DNA of 42,360 nt from a virus: positions 1-42,360 of IMG/VR virus record IMGVR_UViG_3300025789_000072; one strand, written 5' to 3'. The stretch's first letter is position 1; every line of letters begins with the position of its first letter. Shown in pieces: positions 29,490 to 38,459 of the stretch. The translations under genes were made by a program, and so were the position numbers. The notes below the pieces were generated by a model, which saw only the letters and a program-made list of their open reading frames with translations, had not been told where the DNA came from and made no database searches.

Positions 29490-29510
29490 AATGGTAAAAA
29501 AGTGTTAAAA

Positions 29511-29555
29511 TAATTTCCGTTTTAAGTTATTTATTTAGTATCTTAGCGGAAATTA
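29511..29555 (+). promoter_or_regulatory. Promoter-like box inside a 9-bp inverted repeat
   Basis: TAATTTCCG (29511-29519) and CGGAAATTA (29547-29555) flank TATCTTAG (29539-29546), a near-match to the -7 box. The repeat could be an operator for a dimeric repressor or a leader hairpin for the 29562 gene. Confidence 0.4.
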
Positions 29556-29561
29556 TTTAAT

Positions 29562-30080
29562 ATGAAAGTATGTTTTAAATGTGGTATTGAAAAGCAACTA
29601 ACAGAATTTTATGCACACCCTAGAATGGCTGACGGTCACGTTAACAAGTGCAAAGTTTGTAATAAAGAAGATGTTAAGGGAAACTATTTGCAAAATATTA
29701 AAGACTCTTTATATATTGAAAAAGAGCGCAAAAGGGGTAGGCAAAAATATTTTAGACTTTATGAAGGCACAAGTAAAGCAAAGCCTAATAGTAATGCAAA
29801 ATGGGCGGCTAAATTTCCCGAAAAGGTTAAAGCTACAAACTTTTCTTCTTCTTTAAAAAAGCCTTTTGAAAATGCAGAAAAGCATCACTGGAGTTACAAT
29901 GAAGAACATTATAAAGATGTAATTTGGCTAACTAAAAAACATCACTTGAAAGCACATAGGTTTATTATTTACGACCAAGAACAAATGATGTACAGGCGTT
30001 ATGATAATAATGTTCTTTTAGATACCAAAGAAGCACACGAAGCATTTATTAAGAATTGTATTGAACACGAAGAAGATTAA
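29562..30080 (+). CDS. HNH-like nuclease with N-terminal zinc finger
   Basis: A 172-aa protein. An N-terminal Cys4 finger (C4-x2-C7 ... C30-x2-C33, MKVCFKCGIEKQLTEFYAHP / HVNKCKVCN) is followed by a His-rich core, EKHHWSYNEEHYKDVIWLTKKHHLKAHR, matching HNH-type endonucleases that act on nicked or branched DNA. Likely a phage recombination or homing nuclease. Confidence 0.7.
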   Translation: MKVCFKCGIEKQLTEFYAHPRMADGHVNKCKVCNKEDVKGNYLQNIKDSLYIEKERKRGRQKYFRLYEGTSKAKPNSNAKWAAKFPEKVKATNFSSSLKKPFENAEKHHWSYNEEHYKDVIWLTKKHHLKAHRFIIYDQEQMMYRRYDNNVLLDTKEAHEAFIKNCIEHEED

Positions 30081-30630: not shown

Positions 30631-32019
30631 ATGTTTGACAAAGAATTTTACCCGACCCCTGATAATGTGATAGACCGTATGATTAACGGTTATGATTTTA
30701 CAAATAAGATTATACTAGAACCATCCGCAGGAAGTGGTAACATTGTTAGCTATCTTTTACAGAATGGCGCAAAAGAAGTAATTGCGGCAGAAAAAAACGA
30801 CAGCCTCAGAAAAATATTAAAGACTAAATGTAAAGTAATTTCGGATGATTTTATGACAACCACTAGCGATATGATTAGCCATATTGATATGATAGTAATG
30901 AATCCCCCTTTCTCAAACGCTGATACTCATATCCTACACGCCTACAATATCGCTCCCGGTTGTTGTGATATTATTGCGATATGTAATCAAGAAACTGTTA
31001 AAAATAGATATTCAAATAAACGTGGTGAATTGTTTTCTATTATTGAAAATTATGGCAGCTTTGAATATTTAGGCAATGTTTTTAGTGAGGCAGAACGCAC
31101 AACAGATACGGGGATTGTATTAGTAAGAATAAAGAAAGCAGGAGAAAGTAATAAAGGCGAATTTGATGGATTTTTTTTAGATGAAGAAATTGAACAACAA
31201 GTAAACGGTATTATGTCTTATAACGTTGTTCGTGATTTGGTTAATCGTTATACGGGTGCAATAAAGATATTTGATGAGCAATTGCAAGCAGCCGTTAAAA
31301 TGAATAATCTTACAAACGGTTTTTATTCCGCAAAATTAGGAATGTCTATAACTGAAAAAGATGCACCTAAAAATAGAAATGAATTTAAAAAAGACTTACA
31401 AAAAGCAGGTTGGAAGTTTATATTTAGTAAAATGAATATGAATAAATATGCCACCAAAGGGTTAAAGGAAGATATTAATAAGTTCGTAGAGCAGCAAACT
31501 GAAATACCCTTTACAATGCGTAATATTTACAGAATGCTTGATATAGTTATCGGTACTAACTCTCAGCGTATGGATAAAGCTTTAATTGAAGTATTTGATA
31601 AGTTGACAGAACACCACCACGATAATAGATATAGCGTTGAGGGATGGAAAACTAATAGCCATTATTTAGTTAATCGTAAATTTATTATGCCTTATTTGTT
31701 CAATGTTGGATACGGCGGTGAGGTTACAGTCAATTTGTACCATAATAGAAATAATGATATTTTAGACGATTTTATTAAAGCATTATGTTATCTCAATGGT
31801 GATAATTATGATAGCTTAAAAAGTCTTTATAAAACTTGTAATCGTGAAGCAAATTTAGAGTTTGGAAAGTGGCACGAATTTGCATATTTTAAATTTAAAG
31901 CATTTAAAAAAGGTACAGGGCATTTTGAGTTCTTAAACGAAAATATTTGGCATAAGTTTAATCAAAATATTGCAAGAATTAAAGGATATGCACTTTATGA
32001 GCCTAAGTATAAAAAATAA
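30631..32019 (+). CDS. N6-adenine DNA methyltransferase with DUF4942 C terminus
   Basis: A 462-aa protein. Residues 1-170 form a class I methyltransferase: FYPTP at the start, motif I EPSAGSGN (30-37, S-adenosylmethionine binding) and catalytic NPPF (91-94), the N6-adenine type. The C-terminal 280 residues match DUF4942. It would methylate adenine in phage DNA, protecting it from restriction or marking it. No partner endonuclease is adjacent, so it is an orphan methylase. Confidence 0.85.
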   Translation: MFDKEFYPTPDNVIDRMINGYDFTNKIILEPSAGSGNIVSYLLQNGAKEVIAAEKNDSLRKILKTKCKVISDDFMTTTSDMISHIDMIVMNPPFSNADTHILHAYNIAPGCCDIIAICNQETVKNRYSNKRGELFSIIENYGSFEYLGNVFSEAERTTDTGIVLVRIKKAGESNKGEFDGFFLDEEIEQQVNGIMSYNVVRDLVNRYTGAIKIFDEQLQAAVKMNNLTNGFYSAKLGMSITEKDAPKNRNEFKKDLQKAGWKFIFSKMNMNKYATKGLKEDINKFVEQQTEIPFTMRNIYRMLDIVIGTNSQRMDKALIEVFDKLTEHHHDNRYSVEGWKTNSHYLVNRKFIMPYLFNVGYGGEVTVNLYHNRNNDILDDFIKALCYLNGDNYDSLKSLYKTCNREANLEFGKWHEFAYFKFKAFKKGTGHFEFLNENIWHKFNQNIARIKGYALYEPKYKK

Positions 32020-32038: not shown

Positions 32039-32506
32039 ATGACAGCAAAAGAAAGGTATAATGAGGTACATAGGAAGTACATGGAAGTGAAGTGTCCTAC
32101 TGTTGTAGCTGATGGACATTACTCACAACCTAAGTATCCTGATATAAGAAAAAGTAACGGACTTACTAACTACATAGTAAACGCTATTAATTGGCAAGGG
32201 GGTAACGCCACAAGGGTAAGTAGTGCAGGAAGATTAGTAGATGCAACCGAAAAGCAACAAAGCGGTACAATACTAACAGTAAAAAAATATATCCCGTCTA
32301 CAACCCGAAAAGGCACGGCGGATGTTACCGCTACCATTCAAGGACGTTCTGTAAAGTTTGAAATTAAGATAGGCGCAGACAAAGCATCAGCAGACCAATT
32401 AAAAGAACAAGCAAGGGAAATAGCGGCAGGAGGTTACTATTTTTTTGTTAAAACGCCAGAGGATTTTTGGTTATGCTATGAAAAAGTATTACAGGATATT
32501 CGATAG
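32039..32506 (+). CDS. VRR-NUC / PD-(D/E)XK nuclease
   Basis: A 155-aa protein; start ATG at 32039 is chosen because an upstream in-frame start would overlap the methylase gene by 50 nt. The nuclease core is GTADVTA (Asp95), FEIK (Glu108, Lys110) and QLKEQAR (Gln120), the VRR-NUC pattern, with helix-strand order typical of Holliday-junction-type or structure-specific nucleases. It probably processes recombination or replication intermediates. Confidence 0.8.
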   Translation: MTAKERYNEVHRKYMEVKCPTVVADGHYSQPKYPDIRKSNGLTNYIVNAINWQGGNATRVSSAGRLVDATEKQQSGTILTVKKYIPSTTRKGTADVTATIQGRSVKFEIKIGADKASADQLKEQAREIAAGGYYFFVKTPEDFWLCYEKVLQDIR

Positions 32507-32513
32507 TTTTTAG

Positions 32514-32521
32514 TATATTTG
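32514..32521 (+). promoter_or_regulatory. Putative promoter for the kissing-loop RNA
   Basis: TATATTTG exactly matches the -7 consensus, 8 nt after the VRR-NUC stop. No TTTG lies at the usual distance upstream, so strength is uncertain. Transcription would start near 32527. Confidence 0.45.
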
Positions 32522-32526
32522 CGGTA

Positions 32527-32629
32527 GTTCTTATATCACAAATACAGACATCTGCCAATGTCTTATTGATTAAATATTTTTCAGCCCTTAACGGGGAGAG
32601 TGGCAGCTCGAACCGTTAAGGGCTTTTTT
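32527..32629 (+). ncRNA. Candidate small RNA or attenuator with complementary hairpin loops
   Basis: Between the VRR-NUC stop and the ATG at 32637. Hairpin 1: AGACA (32546-32550), loop TCTGCCAA, TGTCT (32559-32563). Hairpin 2: AGCCCTTAACGG (32583-32594) with CCGTTAAGGGCT (32613-32624), an inner GAG/CTC (32598-32600, 32607-32609) and loop TGGCAG (32601-32606). Loop 1 CTGCCA (32552-32557) is the perfect complement of loop 2 TGGCAG. With the TATATTTG box upstream and the T-run it makes a self-contained unit; the nearby start codon also allows an attenuator. Confidence 0.55.
32583..32629 (+). terminator. Strong Rho-independent terminator or attenuator
   Basis: A 12-bp perfect stem (32583-32594 with 32613-32624) followed by six T (32624-32629), only 7 nt before the ATG at 32637. 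Formed by hairpin 2 of the RNA element. Confidence 0.75.
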
Positions 32630-32636
32630 ATTTGCT

Positions 32637-32915
32637 ATGAGTTTTAATAAAGAGTTATTAAATTGTCTTAAATCAGTAGTGTTGAAAGACTTTGAAAAAC
32701 GTACGGAAGATTTTCCAAGTGCTTGTATTATTGGTGCGTGTGTAGGGGTTTATCACCCTAAAAAAGATAAGTATATTGACTTCATACATCAATTTGAAGT
32801 AACAACGGCGCAAGGTGAGATATCCATTATTGCAGCATTAAAAGAAGCCGAAGCTATCACAAACAAATTATTCCCCACCCTTACAACCGCTATTAATCAT
32901 GGAATCATTGACTAA
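32637..32915 (+). CDS. Hypothetical protein after the terminator
   Basis: A 92-aa protein beginning MSFNKELLNCLKSVVLKDFE, mixed alpha/beta, with GACVGVYHPKKDKYIDF. Its ATG lies 7 nt after the T-run, so its expression needs read-through of the terminator or a start within it. It overlaps the HNH gene by 17 nt. Function unknown. Confidence 0.6.
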   Translation: MSFNKELLNCLKSVVLKDFEKRTEDFPSACIIGACVGVYHPKKDKYIDFIHQFEVTTAQGEISIIAALKEAEAITNKLFPTLTTAINHGIID

Positions 32916-33561
32916 AGAATGTGCAATTTGCGGCAGCGAAAACATTCAGTACAAAGAAACTGAAACACAATACGGCTATTATTGTAACGATTGCTATAAC
33001 TTTGGCGTTTACACCTTCAAAGAAAATTTAGGTATATGCTGCAAAAAACCTAAAACAGTAATTTACGAATTAACACAATCCAACGGCGTTTCTATTTATA
33101 GAAATGTTTGTCTTAATTGTTGGGATAATTCAAAAAATATTAAAAAAGATGAAGCCTTAAAAATAGGCATCTACGATAAAGCGGAACTTTCTTCAATTAA
33201 TCAGCTAAAAGATGAAAAACACTCTGGAAGTCTTTGGAGTTACTTTTCTAAGTTAAAGCAAGACGAATATATTAAAAGAAAAGAAGCGGAAGCAGAAAAG
33301 TTTCGTAAAGAACAGCAAGATAAATCTAGCGAATGGTGGCAACGTTATAAAGAATATTTAAAGACGGAAAAATGGCAAAAAAAAAGATTGAAAGTGTTGG
33401 AACGTGATAAAAATCTTTGCCAAGCGTGTTTGGTAAACACCGCAACACAAGTACATCATTTGACATACCAGCGTGTTACCGATGAGCCTATGTTTGATTT
33501 AATTTCTATTTGTTCACCTTGCCACGAAAAGCTACATAAAAAAGAAGACGATGGATATTAG
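32899..33561 (+). CDS. HNH endonuclease with N-terminal zinc-binding region
   Basis: A 220-aa protein. N-terminal zinc-ribbon-like region: C8-x2-C11, C29-x2-C32, C71-x2-C74. A charged helix (120-160) leads to the HNH domain: C174-x2-C177, HH186-187, then a CxxCHEKLH (C205-H209), the GHH-type active site. It cuts DNA, possibly as a packaging or homing nuclease; packaging HNH proteins usually sit beside terminase, which this does not. It overlaps the primase gene by 11 nt. Confidence 0.85.
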   Translation: MESLTKECAICGSENIQYKETETQYGYYCNDCYNFGVYTFKENLGICCKKPKTVIYELTQSNGVSIYRNVCLNCWDNSKNIKKDEALKIGIYDKAELSSINQLKDEKHSGSLWSYFSKLKQDEYIKRKEAEAEKFRKEQQDKSSEWWQRYKEYLKTEKWQKKRLKVLERDKNLCQACLVNTATQVHHLTYQRVTDEPMFDLISICSPCHEKLHKKEDDGY

Positions 33562-35830
33562 TATTTTTAGAGAATTAATTGCAATCGGTTTAAAACCTAT
33601 TCCTATTTATTGGAACGCTGAAACAAAGACCGCAGATAGTCACGTTGTTAAACATAGTGAAATTACAGACGATAATTACAACAATACTACTATTGATAAA
33701 TGGCTAAAAGAGATTGAGCAAGCCAATGGGATAGCTTTAAAGTTATTTCCGCCATTTGCGGCGTTTGATTTTGATTTGAAGAATACCGACAATAAAGTAG
33801 TTTTTACTGATTGGATGCAAATAGTTAAAGCTACTAATGAAGATGTTTTAAGGAAAGTTTGTATTGAGGAAACTAGAAACAAGGGATATCACATTTATTT
33901 TAAATACCCGCAGCTCAGTCACAAGATAGGTATTGCAGCCAATGATAAAGGCAATGAAATAATAAGCGTTTATACAGGTGGGTTACTAGCTTATTGCGCT
34001 CCTACACCCGGATATACTATGTTTCATAATTCATGGGAAGATTTAGAAGAACTTACCCAAGAAGAATACGATTTACTTGTATCTGTTTCTGCTACATTCA
34101 ACGAGTACAAAGACAACTTAGAACACAAAGAAACTTCATTTAACCCCGTTGAGTACCCTTTAGATTATGAAAGTACTTGTTTATCATTTGACTACAATAT
34201 AACGGATGAAGCCTTTGAAACGATGTTAAATGAAATGTCTTTATTTAGAAACTTATCCTATAAATATAGTAAGAATGATAAGCACATAGCATATTTACGA
34301 AAAGATAGTACAGCTACTTATTCAGCTAAAGTTTATTGGAAATCACGCAAGGTTATTCTATTTACAACATCATTACCCGACTATCCTAATTGGCAGGATA
34401 GGAAAGGGGCAAGCGATAAAAGTTGGGTACTTACTCCCTCAAGGATTATTTACTACCGAAATAAAAGAGATTGGATTAAGACTATTGAAGAAATACAAAT
34501 AATTTGCGATAGTATAGGCATTGAAATAAAACAAAAGCCTATCGAACTACAACCACTTCGCCAGGATAGGATGCAGTTTCCTTATGATATATTCCCCGAC
34601 TATTTACAGGAATATATTAAATGCCATAACATTCAACATGAGTACATTGCATCGTTTATGTTTTCGGCACTTAGTACGGCAATAGGTAATACTTGCTATT
34701 TAGAAGCGTTGGACGGGTATTTCGTTAAGCCTATTATCTATCTTGCAGTTGTGGCTAATGCAGGTAGCGCAAAGTCGCCTAGTATGAAGATAGCTTTTGA
34801 TTTTCTTACTAAACAGGATAACGAACGCTTTAAAGAATACAAGACTAAGAAGGCTGCCTATATTGAAGAAAAAGCAATCTTTGATAAAGATAAGAAGTCA
34901 AACACGCCGCCGACATTGCCAATACTATCACAAAACATTATACAGGATGCCACAATTGAAACGGTTATAAACGTGCTACAATACAATAATAAAGGGTGTG
35001 TATTGCTTGCAGATGAGTTGATAGGTTTTATTAAAAGAATGAACGCATATAAACAGGGGGATGATTTACAAAAGTGGCTAGAAATGTGGGACGGTAGTAG
35101 CATTATGTTGCAACGTATAACCCGTGAGGAAACTAAGATAATAGACTATACTTGTAATGTTGTTGGTGGTATTCAGCCCGGTGTGTTAGACCAACTATCA
35201 AATGGGGAAAACGCCTATAATGGTTTTTACCATCGTTTTTTATTCAGCTATCCTAACCCACAAGATAAAGCATCATTTGAGCAGATATATAAGCCGACAC
35301 ACTTAAAAGAGCGTGTTACGACGTTATTCAGCGATTTATATGCACATCGTGACAATGAAGTAAAGACACATTATACAATGTCACCCGAAGCAATGCAACT
35401 TTATAAACGGTGGCACGACCATAAGAACACCTATTACAACAAAGCCAATAATGATAACGTTAAGGGTATCATCGCAAAATATCAAGGTTACTGCCTACGT
35501 TTTGCTCTTATTATTCAAGCCATAAGTGATGGTAGTTACCGAGTAGGTTATATAATGCAGGATAGTATGGAACGTGCTATTCGTTTAACGGAGTATTTCT
35601 TTGCCAATATGAATAAGGCTTTAAAGTTGCTTGACCCAGAAACGCCTATTGATAATCTTAGAAGCCCTTATGATAAAATATACCCAGATTTACCTGCACA
35701 GTTTACAACTAGAACAGGTATAGAAATAGCGGCACGTTACAAGGTGAAAGAGGCTACATTTAAAGTATGGTTATCTAGCAATAGAAAGTTATTTACACAG
35801 TTAGAAAGGGGCGTTTACGAGAAGTTGTAA
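33551..35830 (+). CDS. Primase-polymerase/DUF3987 helicase
   Basis: A 759-aa replication protein. The N-terminal 250 residues resemble prim-pol domains: FDFDLK near 73-78 (metal-binding D-x-D), then TRNKGYHIYFKYP with a His. The C-terminal half is a DUF3987-type ATPase: Walker A VANAGSAKSPSM near 400-412 and Walker B CVLLADE near 482-488. It would prime and unwind at the origin just downstream. No DNA polymerase gene is in the window, so the host polymerase is probably used. Confidence 0.85.
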   Translation: MDISIFRELIAIGLKPIPIYWNAETKTADSHVVKHSEITDDNYNNTTIDKWLKEIEQANGIALKLFPPFAAFDFDLKNTDNKVVFTDWMQIVKATNEDVLRKVCIEETRNKGYHIYFKYPQLSHKIGIAANDKGNEIISVYTGGLLAYCAPTPGYTMFHNSWEDLEELTQEEYDLLVSVSATFNEYKDNLEHKETSFNPVEYPLDYESTCLSFDYNITDEAFETMLNEMSLFRNLSYKYSKNDKHIAYLRKDSTATYSAKVYWKSRKVILFTTSLPDYPNWQDRKGASDKSWVLTPSRIIYYRNKRDWIKTIEEIQIICDSIGIEIKQKPIELQPLRQDRMQFPYDIFPDYLQEYIKCHNIQHEYIASFMFSALSTAIGNTCYLEALDGYFVKPIIYLAVVANAGSAKSPSMKIAFDFLTKQDNERFKEYKTKKAAYIEEKAIFDKDKKSNTPPTLPILSQNIIQDATIETVINVLQYNNKGCVLLADELIGFIKRMNAYKQGDDLQKWLEMWDGSSIMLQRITREETKIIDYTCNVVGGIQPGVLDQLSNGENAYNGFYHRFLFSYPNPQDKASFEQIYKPTHLKERVTTLFSDLYAHRDNEVKTHYTMSPEAMQLYKRWHDHKNTYYNKANNDNVKGIIAKYQGYCLRFALIIQAISDGSYRVGYIMQDSMERAIRLTEYFFANMNKALKLLDPETPIDNLRSPYDKIYPDLPAQFTTRTGIEIAARYKVKEATFKVWLSSNRKLFTQLERGVYEKL

Positions 35831-36956: not shown

Positions 36957-37144
36957 CAAAAGAAAAACTTTCTTACTACATTCGCACCGAACGTAAACTA
37001 AATGACATATCTTTGCAAGACATGGCAAAAGAGATAGGTGTAACACCCGAAGCACTTTGCCGAATGGAAAGCGGGAAGTATTGGATTAATAGTAAAAATT
37101 TATTTGCTATTTGCGAAGTACTGAAAATTAAAATACTAGAATGA
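36953..37144 (+). CDS. XRE-family HTH regulator
   Basis: A 63-aa protein that is essentially one XRE helix-turn-helix domain: IRTERKLNDISLQDMAKEIGVTPEALCRMESGKYWINSKNLFAICEVLK. It probably binds an operator such as those near 36154 or 17626 (inference). ATGA overlaps on both sides. Confidence 0.8.
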   Translation: MTKEKLSYYIRTERKLNDISLQDMAKEIGVTPEALCRMESGKYWINSKNLFAICEVLKIKILE

Positions 37145-37722
37145 TTTACAAAAATATAACAGATATTAAGGCAAACCCTAAAAACCCTCGTGTAATTAAA
37201 GACGATAAATTTGCTAAATTAGTTAAATCATTACAGGACTTTCCAGAAATGTTACAGAAACGCCCTTTAGTTTGCTTTACCGACGTAGATAATAAAGTAG
37301 TAGTGCTCGGTGGTAATATGCGCCTAAAAGCAGCTAAAGAATGTGGAATGAAGCAACTGCCAGTTATACTTGCAGACGATTGGACGGAAGAACAAAAGAA
37401 TGAGTTTCTTATTAAAGATAATGTAGGTTTTGGCGATTGGAATTGGGAAGAAATAATAGTAGATTGGGATGTAGAACAACTAGGAAAATGGGGGTTAGAT
37501 GTCCCTATATTTCATAATGATTTAGAAATTAATGAAATGACTGATGATAATGTAGATATTACAGAGGAGTTCGACCCCGTAGGAAATACAGGAAATCAGC
37601 AAAGAGTTGTATTTTTATTTGATGGAAAAGATGAAGCTGAAAGTTATCTAAATTCAATAAATGTTGAATTTAAAAAAATGAATATGGCATGGCAAGTAAA
37701 CATGTGTACCCCGTCTATATAA
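37141..37722 (+). CDS. ParB/sulfiredoxin-like N-terminal domain protein
   Basis: A 193-aa protein. Residues 1-110 match the ParB-nuclease/Srx fold: ITDIKANPKNPRVIKDDKFAKLVKSLQDFPEMLQKRPLVC, then VVLGGNMRLKAAKECGMKQLPVI, with GGNMRLKA as the signature. A Trp/Glu-rich segment (WNWEEIIVDWDVEQLGKWG) follows. In phages this domain often stands next to methylases or base-modifying enzymes. Here it overlaps the TAGT gene by 34 nt, so they are made together. Confidence 0.8.
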   Translation: MIYKNITDIKANPKNPRVIKDDKFAKLVKSLQDFPEMLQKRPLVCFTDVDNKVVVLGGNMRLKAAKECGMKQLPVILADDWTEEQKNEFLIKDNVGFGDWNWEEIIVDWDVEQLGKWGLDVPIFHNDLEINEMTDDNVDITEEFDPVGNTGNQQRVVFLFDGKDEAESYLNSINVEFKKMNMAWQVNMCTPSI

Positions 37723-38459
37723 TTTCTAAAGGAAGGTATGAAAAAACATTAACCGCTGATAATTTCGAAAATTCAAATATTGATTATTTAATTGTAGTTG
37801 AGCCACAAGAATATGATTTGTATTGTAAAAAATTAGGCATTAAAAGAGTTTTAAAATTACCATTTTCAAATTTAGGGCTAGGTAGTTATCCAGCTCGTAA
37901 CTTTTGTTGGGAACATGCAAAATTATTAGGTTATAAATATCATTGGTTATTTGATGATAATATACAATATTGGTGTAAATGGATTAATGGGAAACGAACA
38001 AAAATAACTGATATTGATAGTGCATTATTTTTTGTAGAACAATTTACTATAAAAAACAATATTGATATATCAGGATTTGAAGAACCTAATTTTGTTGTTA
38101 AAATACCTAAAAAGCCATTTAAAACAAATTGCCACGTTTATAGTGCAATGCTAATAAAAAACAATTTGCCTTATCATTGGCGACTTAAATACAATGAGGA
38201 TATAGATTTATGCTTACAAGTGTTACATAATGGTGGTAGCACTGCAAGTTGTGTTTATTATATGGCAGATAAAGTTAGTACAGCAGCTAAAATGAAAGGT
38301 GGCAATCAAACAGAGTTATATAAAGGTAACGACCCTAAAAAAAACTTATTAAAAGCTAAAATGATTGAAGCGGTATGGCCACAATATGCAAAAACAGTAA
38401 TAAGATTTGGCAGACATCATCATTTAATAGATTGGAAAGTTTTTAATAAAAAAAAGTAA
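37689..38459 (+). CDS. TET-associated glycosyltransferase (TAGT)
   Basis: A 256-aa protein matching the TAGT family: PVYIISKGRYEKT at the start, VVEPQEYDLYCKKLG, LPFSNLGLGSYPARNFCWEH, WLFDDN (89-91, metal/nucleotide-sugar acidic motif), WRLKYNEDIDLCLQVL and MKGGNQTELYKG. TAGT proteins are GT-A-type enzymes predicted to attach sugars to modified bases such as hydroxymethylated pyrimidines in phage DNA. No TET/JBP oxygenase or hydroxymethylase is seen in the window, so the acceptor base is unknown. Confidence 0.85.
   Translation: MASKHVYPVYIISKGRYEKTLTADNFENSNIDYLIVVEPQEYDLYCKKLGIKRVLKLPFSNLGLGSYPARNFCWEHAKLLGYKYHWLFDDNIQYWCKWINGKRTKITDIDSALFFVEQFTIKNNIDISGFEEPNFVVKIPKKPFKTNCHVYSAMLIKNNLPYHWRLKYNEDIDLCLQVLHNGGSTASCVYYMADKVSTAAKMKGGNQTELYKGNDPKKNLLKAKMIEAVWPQYAKTVIRFGRHHHLIDWKVFNKKK

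Follow-up and report, generated by a model that had tools for sequence, protein, structure and literature searches.

A putative self-terminating leader RNA with kissing hairpin loops upstream of phage replication genes

The window analysed here is the whole of an IMG/VR virus record, 42,360 bases in length with a GC content of 36%. Directly before a presumed replication operon it carries two hairpins whose loops are exact complements of each other, and one of these loops caps an intrinsic terminator. Do the two loops pair with each other, and does the RNA that contains them control the genes that follow?

The element in the window

The features of the element and of the genes downstream are listed in Table 1. 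The promoter box, both hairpins, the 12-bp outer stem of H2, the six T and the ATG at 32637, which lies 7 nt after the end of the U-tract, can all be read directly in the sequence. The same is true of the two exactly complementary 6-nt loops, one of them at the tip of the terminator. These features agree with the original prediction, apart from the stem of H1, which had been given as 5 bp and is 6 bp long. Single-strand folding of 32514-32636 predicts both hairpins (-39.4 kcal/mol; z -5.3 against dinucleotide shuffles), and the fold of 32527-32631 gives a z of -5.4 against the same kind of shuffle. A simple terminator scan listed no site at H2 because it needs an uninterrupted stem and a loop of 3-8. 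A covariance model (R1), from whose training set the window was left out, scored the window H2 at 35.8 bits (E 1.3e-5).

Table 1. Features of the element and the genes that follow it in the window.
Feature	Position	Strand	Description	Basis
Putative -7 promoter box, Bacteroidetes-type	32514-32521	+	TATATTTG	Sequence match to consensus TAnnTTTG
Hairpin H1	32546-32563	+	6-bp stem AGACAT/ATGTCT (32546-32551/32558-32563), hexaloop CTGCCA	Sequence, fold
L1 (H1 loop)	32552-32557	+	CTGCCA, exact 6-nt complement of L2	Compensated in relatives
Linker	32564-32582	+	A/U-rich, single-stranded, 19 nt	
Hairpin H2	32583-32624	+	Intrinsic terminator hairpin	Sequence, fold, covariance-model match
H2 outer stem	32583-32594/32613-32624	+	12 bp, AGCCCTTAACGG/CCGTTAAGGGCT	
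H2 internal loop	32595-32597 (GGA), 32610-32612 (GAA)	+	3x3, GGA/GAA	
H2 apical stem		+	3-bp GAG/CTC, between internal loop and hexaloop	
L2 (H2 apical hexaloop)	32601-32606	+	TGGCAG, exact 6-nt complement of L1	Compensated in relatives
Terminator U-tract	32624-32629	+	Six T	Sequence
First gene after the element	32637-32915	+	92 aa	No family match
HNH endonuclease gene	32899-33561	+	220 aa	PHROG 144, E 1.5e-14
DUF3987 helicase/primase-like replication protein	33551-35830	+	759 aa	PF13148, E 4.3e-53; phrog_2373 DNA helicase

In Flavobacterium psychrophilum the primary sigma factor has TAnnTTTG as its -7 element (PMC9723704). This type of promoter suggests a Bacteroidetes host, and the transcript would be expected to start at about 32525-32530. 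A leader of ~110 nt would be unusual for such a promoter, given that the median 5' UTR in F. psychrophilum is 24 bp (PMC9723704). A similar box is usually found 11-37 nt before H1 in related elements. No TAnnTTTG box was detected between the terminator and the ATG in the window, nor on the opposite strand at 32500-33000, and the 7 nt from U-tract to ATG are too few to hold another such promoter. At the level of sequence, and with the promoter assigned by consensus, the gene is thus preceded by promoter, leader and terminator without an intervening promoter.

Loop-loop pairing in relatives and in blind searches

Relatives were first reached via the primase-like protein of the downstream operon. 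Upstream of the primase-like gene in L124 and L127 the loops read CTGGCA/TGCCAG, a double change that keeps the pairing, while those of L125 and L126 are GCAGCCTA/TAGGCTGC and those of L131 GTTCGAG/CTCGAAC. A scan for promoter, H1 and terminator added further members, with the loop pairs CCGCCA/TGGCGG (L140), ATTGCAG/CTGCAAT (L141, L172), CGTGCCGG/CCGGCACG (L145, L170), GGTGACTC/GAGTCACC (L143) and TGTGGTAG/CTACCACA (L129). The elements of L128 and L156 came from a relaxed scan, and those of L086 and L154 from the covariance model of H2 trained without the window; in the latter two the upstream loops were complementary as well. Second elements occur in the phages of L124 (TATGCGACA/TGTCGCATA) and L127 (AGGTAGAAGTG/CACTTCTACCT). 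Beyond CTGGCA/TGCCAG, CGTGCCGG/CCGGCACG and TATGCGACA/TGTCGCATA, more than 25 other loop pairs were found, with the design kept in related phages. In phages with two elements the loops always differ (6 of 6 cases, which is not significant). The element is present in all loci in which the primase is ~58% or more identical and the upstream region is available; many loci with a more distant primase are without it.

The closest comparison is between the window and L127, whose flanking genes are 96-99.6% identical to those of the window and whose H1 is 63% identical. When window 32546-32631 is set against L127:2861-2948, H1 and the linker differ by about a third, and the sole stem-loop difference in H2 is a compensating base in L2. 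Judging from this alignment, H1 is either replaced or fast-changing between the two phages, with L2 having followed. L127:1488-2367 also holds a GIY-YIG/NUMOD3 homing-type endonuclease gene that is absent at that place in the window. This gene comes with a separate copy of the element, whose loop pair is 11 nt long, and the insertion lies within the gene region upstream of the main element.

The complementarity spans essentially the whole of both loops and ends at the loop edges without extending into the stems, which argues for loop-loop kissing and not for a competing helix. For the same reason, an alternative helix of the classical antiterminator kind was rejected. Spacing between L1 and L2 is 39-44 nt in most members although the lengths of stem and linker differ (in a few members the boundary between linker and arm is only roughly placed). 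A simple length estimate suggests that in most members the linker can reach across the stacked helices, so that kissing within one molecule would be possible. The kissing segments are GC-rich (60% vs 36% for the window), and a T-run is found in every accepted member. The conserved internal loop of the terminator, GGA(U)/(U)GAA, amounts to three stacked G-A oppositions, an arrangement that is stable in model RNAs; it is absent in other subtypes (L125, L131, L142). In one such subtype, comprising L131:4047-4160, L142:4276-4390 and the minus strand of L096 near 8856, the stem of H1 is very long, the linker holds an additional hairpin and the terminator is short and lacks GGA/GAA; the loops are still complementary (GTTCGAG, ATTGCAG, ATTGCGG).

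As complementarity had been a search condition for some members, two further searches used the terminator alone. The first used the pattern GGGGA...GAACC...TTTTTATTTTATG and returned 18 viral loci, from which L291 (a chance match in coding sequence) and L300 (a contig that starts inside the element) were left out. In 16 of the 16 remaining loci the apical loop has a complement of 6-8 nt upstream; in L293 this complementary segment does not lie in a clear hairpin. After near-duplicates in IMG/VR had been merged for the statistics and identical interiors removed, 13 distinct terminators remained. All 13 showed complementarity of at least 6 nt with their own upstream region, compared with 11% of cross pairs and 5.6% of shuffled loops, and none of 20,000 permutations did as well. 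The second pattern, GGGGGATGGN{5,10}CCTGAACCC, contained neither the T-run nor the ATG. In 17 of its hits, outer stem and T-run were present and the upstream region was complete. All 17 had a complementary partner, with nine different loops between them, and in each an ATG lies 6-14 nt after the start of the T-run. In matches to this pattern without a terminator, both the complementary partner and the ATG linkage were absent. Seven loci were common to both searches. A fortuitous match between the two loops was considered, as 6-nt matches are common (~5.6% per shuffled terminator), and is refuted by the 13 self-matching terminators, the permutations and the replication in the second search.

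Covariation in the first blind set points the same way. All six kissing pairs changed on both sides (6/6), with 100% of the kissing cells paired, as did all five H1 pairs (5/5). The kissing helix had a covariation score of 1.135, compared with 0.233 after shuffling and at most 0.21 for slid registers. Loop-loop covariation at homologous loci had been put forward in the original prediction as a check, and homologues with non-complementary loops as its refutation; these were looked for, and complementarity was kept in the relatives and in both blind sets.

Other searches delimit how far the family could be traced. A nucleotide search of annotated phages gave no match, and a protein search with the primase gave only four distant, unannotated fecal phage records. 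In genome contigs, a search with the primase alignment found no relatives and a search for the terminator pattern only two chance matches. The terminator model run on 395 Bacteroidota genomes gave six matches (E 2e-4 to 0.01), roughly as many as chance would yield, and GGGGA lay near none of them. A loose CTGCCA...TGGCAG pattern returned mostly chance matches in coding sequence, and true members were accepted only after structural checks. Signal could not be separated from controls in unstructured scans for loop matches; it was separable only with descriptors that included H1, terminator and T-run, or by the blind terminator searches. Many viral contigs share another conserved hairpin, TTCAGGGGGATGGTCCTTCCCCTGAA or a near variant of it, which has no T-run and is unrelated to the kissing-loop family. 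It was seen in L317, L321, L323, L325, L326, L328, L329, L331, L333, L334, L340, L343 and L344.

Gene context and possible functions

The element usually begins a few tens of nucleotides after the upstream gene. Homologues of the 92-aa gene come after it in L124, L125 and L127, and in some relatives the next gene encodes the DUF3987 helicase/primase or is a small one preceding that gene. Elsewhere the next gene encodes a DnaG-type primase with a CHC2 zinc finger (L249, L296), a helicase (L290, L302, L304), a replication initiator (L292, L297, L298, and Lin1244_N in L096), a DUF1376-like protein (L294), or an HNH or GIY-YIG endonuclease (L127, L140, L213, L230, L287). At least 8 of the 13 distinct elements from the first blind search precede replication genes or operons by HMM match, and some downstream genes encode homing-type nucleases or unknown proteins. 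The element recurs before replication genes whose machineries are unrelated, namely DUF3987 proteins, DnaG-type primase/helicase, SNF2-type helicases and initiators. The terminator of the element abuts the next start codon, whereas 31-311 nt separate the other terminators of these loci from one (a small control set, n=10).

Further genes and repeats were observed in the window. A methyltransferase-like/DUF4942 protein is encoded upstream of the element (30631-32019), and a ParB-like protein beside a TET-associated glycosyltransferase (TAGT, PF20691) downstream of it (37141-38459); the DUF4942, ParB-like and TAGT genes may belong to a DNA base modification pathway. The 12-nt arms AAATAATTTCCG/CGGAAATTATTT of a perfect inverted repeat at 29508-29558 are 27 nt apart; the repeat has no T-run, and 3 nt lie between its end and the ATG at 29562 that opens an endonuclease-like gene.

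The original prediction had offered two forms, a small kissing-loop RNA of ~100 nt or an attenuator of the HNH/primase-helicase operon. Both are supported, and the context favours the attenuator, because the terminator abuts the next ATG and replication, HNH or GIY-YIG genes follow in unrelated operons. We therefore favour, with fair confidence, the reading that the element is a self-terminating leader RNA, or transcription attenuator, of the phage replication operon. Transcription would start just after TATATTTG and produce H1 first; the long terminator hairpin H2 would follow, and its apical loop would kiss the loop of H1. Most transcripts would presumably end at the U-tract, yielding a compact RNA of ~100 nt, while a readthrough share would express the genes for the 92-aa protein, the HNH endonuclease and the helicase/primase. 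As the apical stem is only 2-3 bp, the kiss should help to nucleate and hold H2 and so promote termination, although the opposite effect is also conceivable; breaking or out-competing it would then raise readthrough. Comparison between loci bears out both hairpins, the loop-loop pairing, the GGA/GAA loop, the U-tract, the link to the start codon and the preference for replication genes. It is probable that the element is a genuine on/off control of phage replication genes, not catalogued before, its pairing having been kept with entirely different letters in dozens of other environmental phages. The analysis found neither a ligand nor a protein or second structure by which the leader would be switched, and the sequence by itself reveals no switch because the two hairpins and the kiss are mutually compatible.

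The released RNA of ~100 nt might instead act in trans, its loops binding the same element on RNAs still being transcribed from its own or a related phage, in the manner of P4 CI RNA or plasmid antisense RNAs, to give copy-number-like feedback or superinfection control. We hold this to be possible but rather doubtful. Loop diversity would then mark compatibility groups, and competition between genome copies for loops would explain both the diversification and the link to replication. The loops do diversify while self-complementarity is always kept, as in the divergent H1 and compensated L2 of the window and L127, the element precedes replication genes, and two-element phages carry different loops in the few cases observed. 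However, 7 of the 8 longer loops tested had no second target in the sequence examined, the intramolecular kiss is geometrically possible in most members, so that no second molecule is needed, and compensatory drift alone could diversify the loops. In its extended form, which we likewise treat as a speculative minority reading, the terminated leader would sense or limit the expression of its own replication operon in trans through a self-recognising RNA code. The hypervariable loops would form compatibility or immunity groups among Bacteroidetes phages, much as plasmid antisense RNAs set compatibility groups.

An unregulated promoter and constitutive terminator between operons, with the kiss merely stabilising the RNA end and readthrough due to leakiness, seems improbable to us. 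Such an arrangement would accord with the coexistence of both hairpins and the kiss, the lack of a switch partner among the structures found, and the short distance from the upstream gene. Yet a terminator would not need exact complementarity strongly kept through sequence change, a fixed L1-L2 spacing in most members or a conserved internal loop, and the ten other terminators do not abut start codons. Very improbable is an element acting as DNA or as a primer (a replication origin, a single-strand hairpin or an RNA primer): it would fit the position beside replication genes, but the T-run, promoter box and ATG linkage point to transcription, freely varying loops make a common DNA-binding protein unlikely, and some phages have two elements or have one before unrelated genes.

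Novelty and comparison with known systems

No Rfam 15 family scored above its gathering threshold in the window, and no C4 match was among the weak Rfam matches there at E up to 10. The best of these weak matches was the trpB ncRNA motif (RF04312; 24 bits, E 0.16, far below its gathering score of 59), which shares the layout of hairpin, linker and terminator; unlike the element here, its model has a long first loop without a kissing partner. No description of such an element was found in the openly licensed literature. It appears to represent an RNA family that is confined to phages and has no entry in Rfam, with the terminator loop as the conserved partner of an upstream loop. Phage gene regulation in Bacteroidetes is little known, and an element working as proposed would be a common early control point in these phages, with its many loop pairs forming a natural set of candidate orthogonal attenuators.

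Individual properties of the element have counterparts elsewhere. The packaging RNA (pRNA) of phi29 is a single RNA with two mutually complementary, covarying loops; it differs in lacking a terminator-loop partner, in the genes concerned and in its assembly into a ring at the portal. In ColE1, RNA I and RNA II control replication through fully paired hairpin loops of 6-8 nt, so that whole-loop kissing is shared, whereas these are two overlapping antisense RNAs without a terminator loop and with different genes. Closer in context is the CI RNA of satellite phage P4 (and the C4 RNA of P1/P7), a small RNA from the leader of a replication (or antirepressor) operon; P4 CI uses complementary segments on the same transcript and controls transcription termination, as is proposed here. 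Unlike in P4 CI, the pairing segments here are two entire hairpin loops, one of them that of the intrinsic terminator itself, and their sequences vary.

The antisense attenuators of plasmid pT181 (and of pIP501/pAMbeta1) combine loop-loop kissing with an intrinsic terminator before a replication initiator gene (PMC3753616). The element resembles pT181 in tying loop-loop kissing to an intrinsic terminator before replication genes. In pT181 the antisense RNA comes from the opposite strand, whereas here both loops lie on one RNA, and the window has no opposite-strand TAnnTTTG promoter at 32500-33000. We class the element, as a putative family previously uncatalogued as far as could be checked, with the leader/attenuator RNAs, because it would work like the replication attenuators of plasmids and P4, yet without the opposite-strand antisense RNA of pT181 and with the pairing partner placed on the terminator loop.
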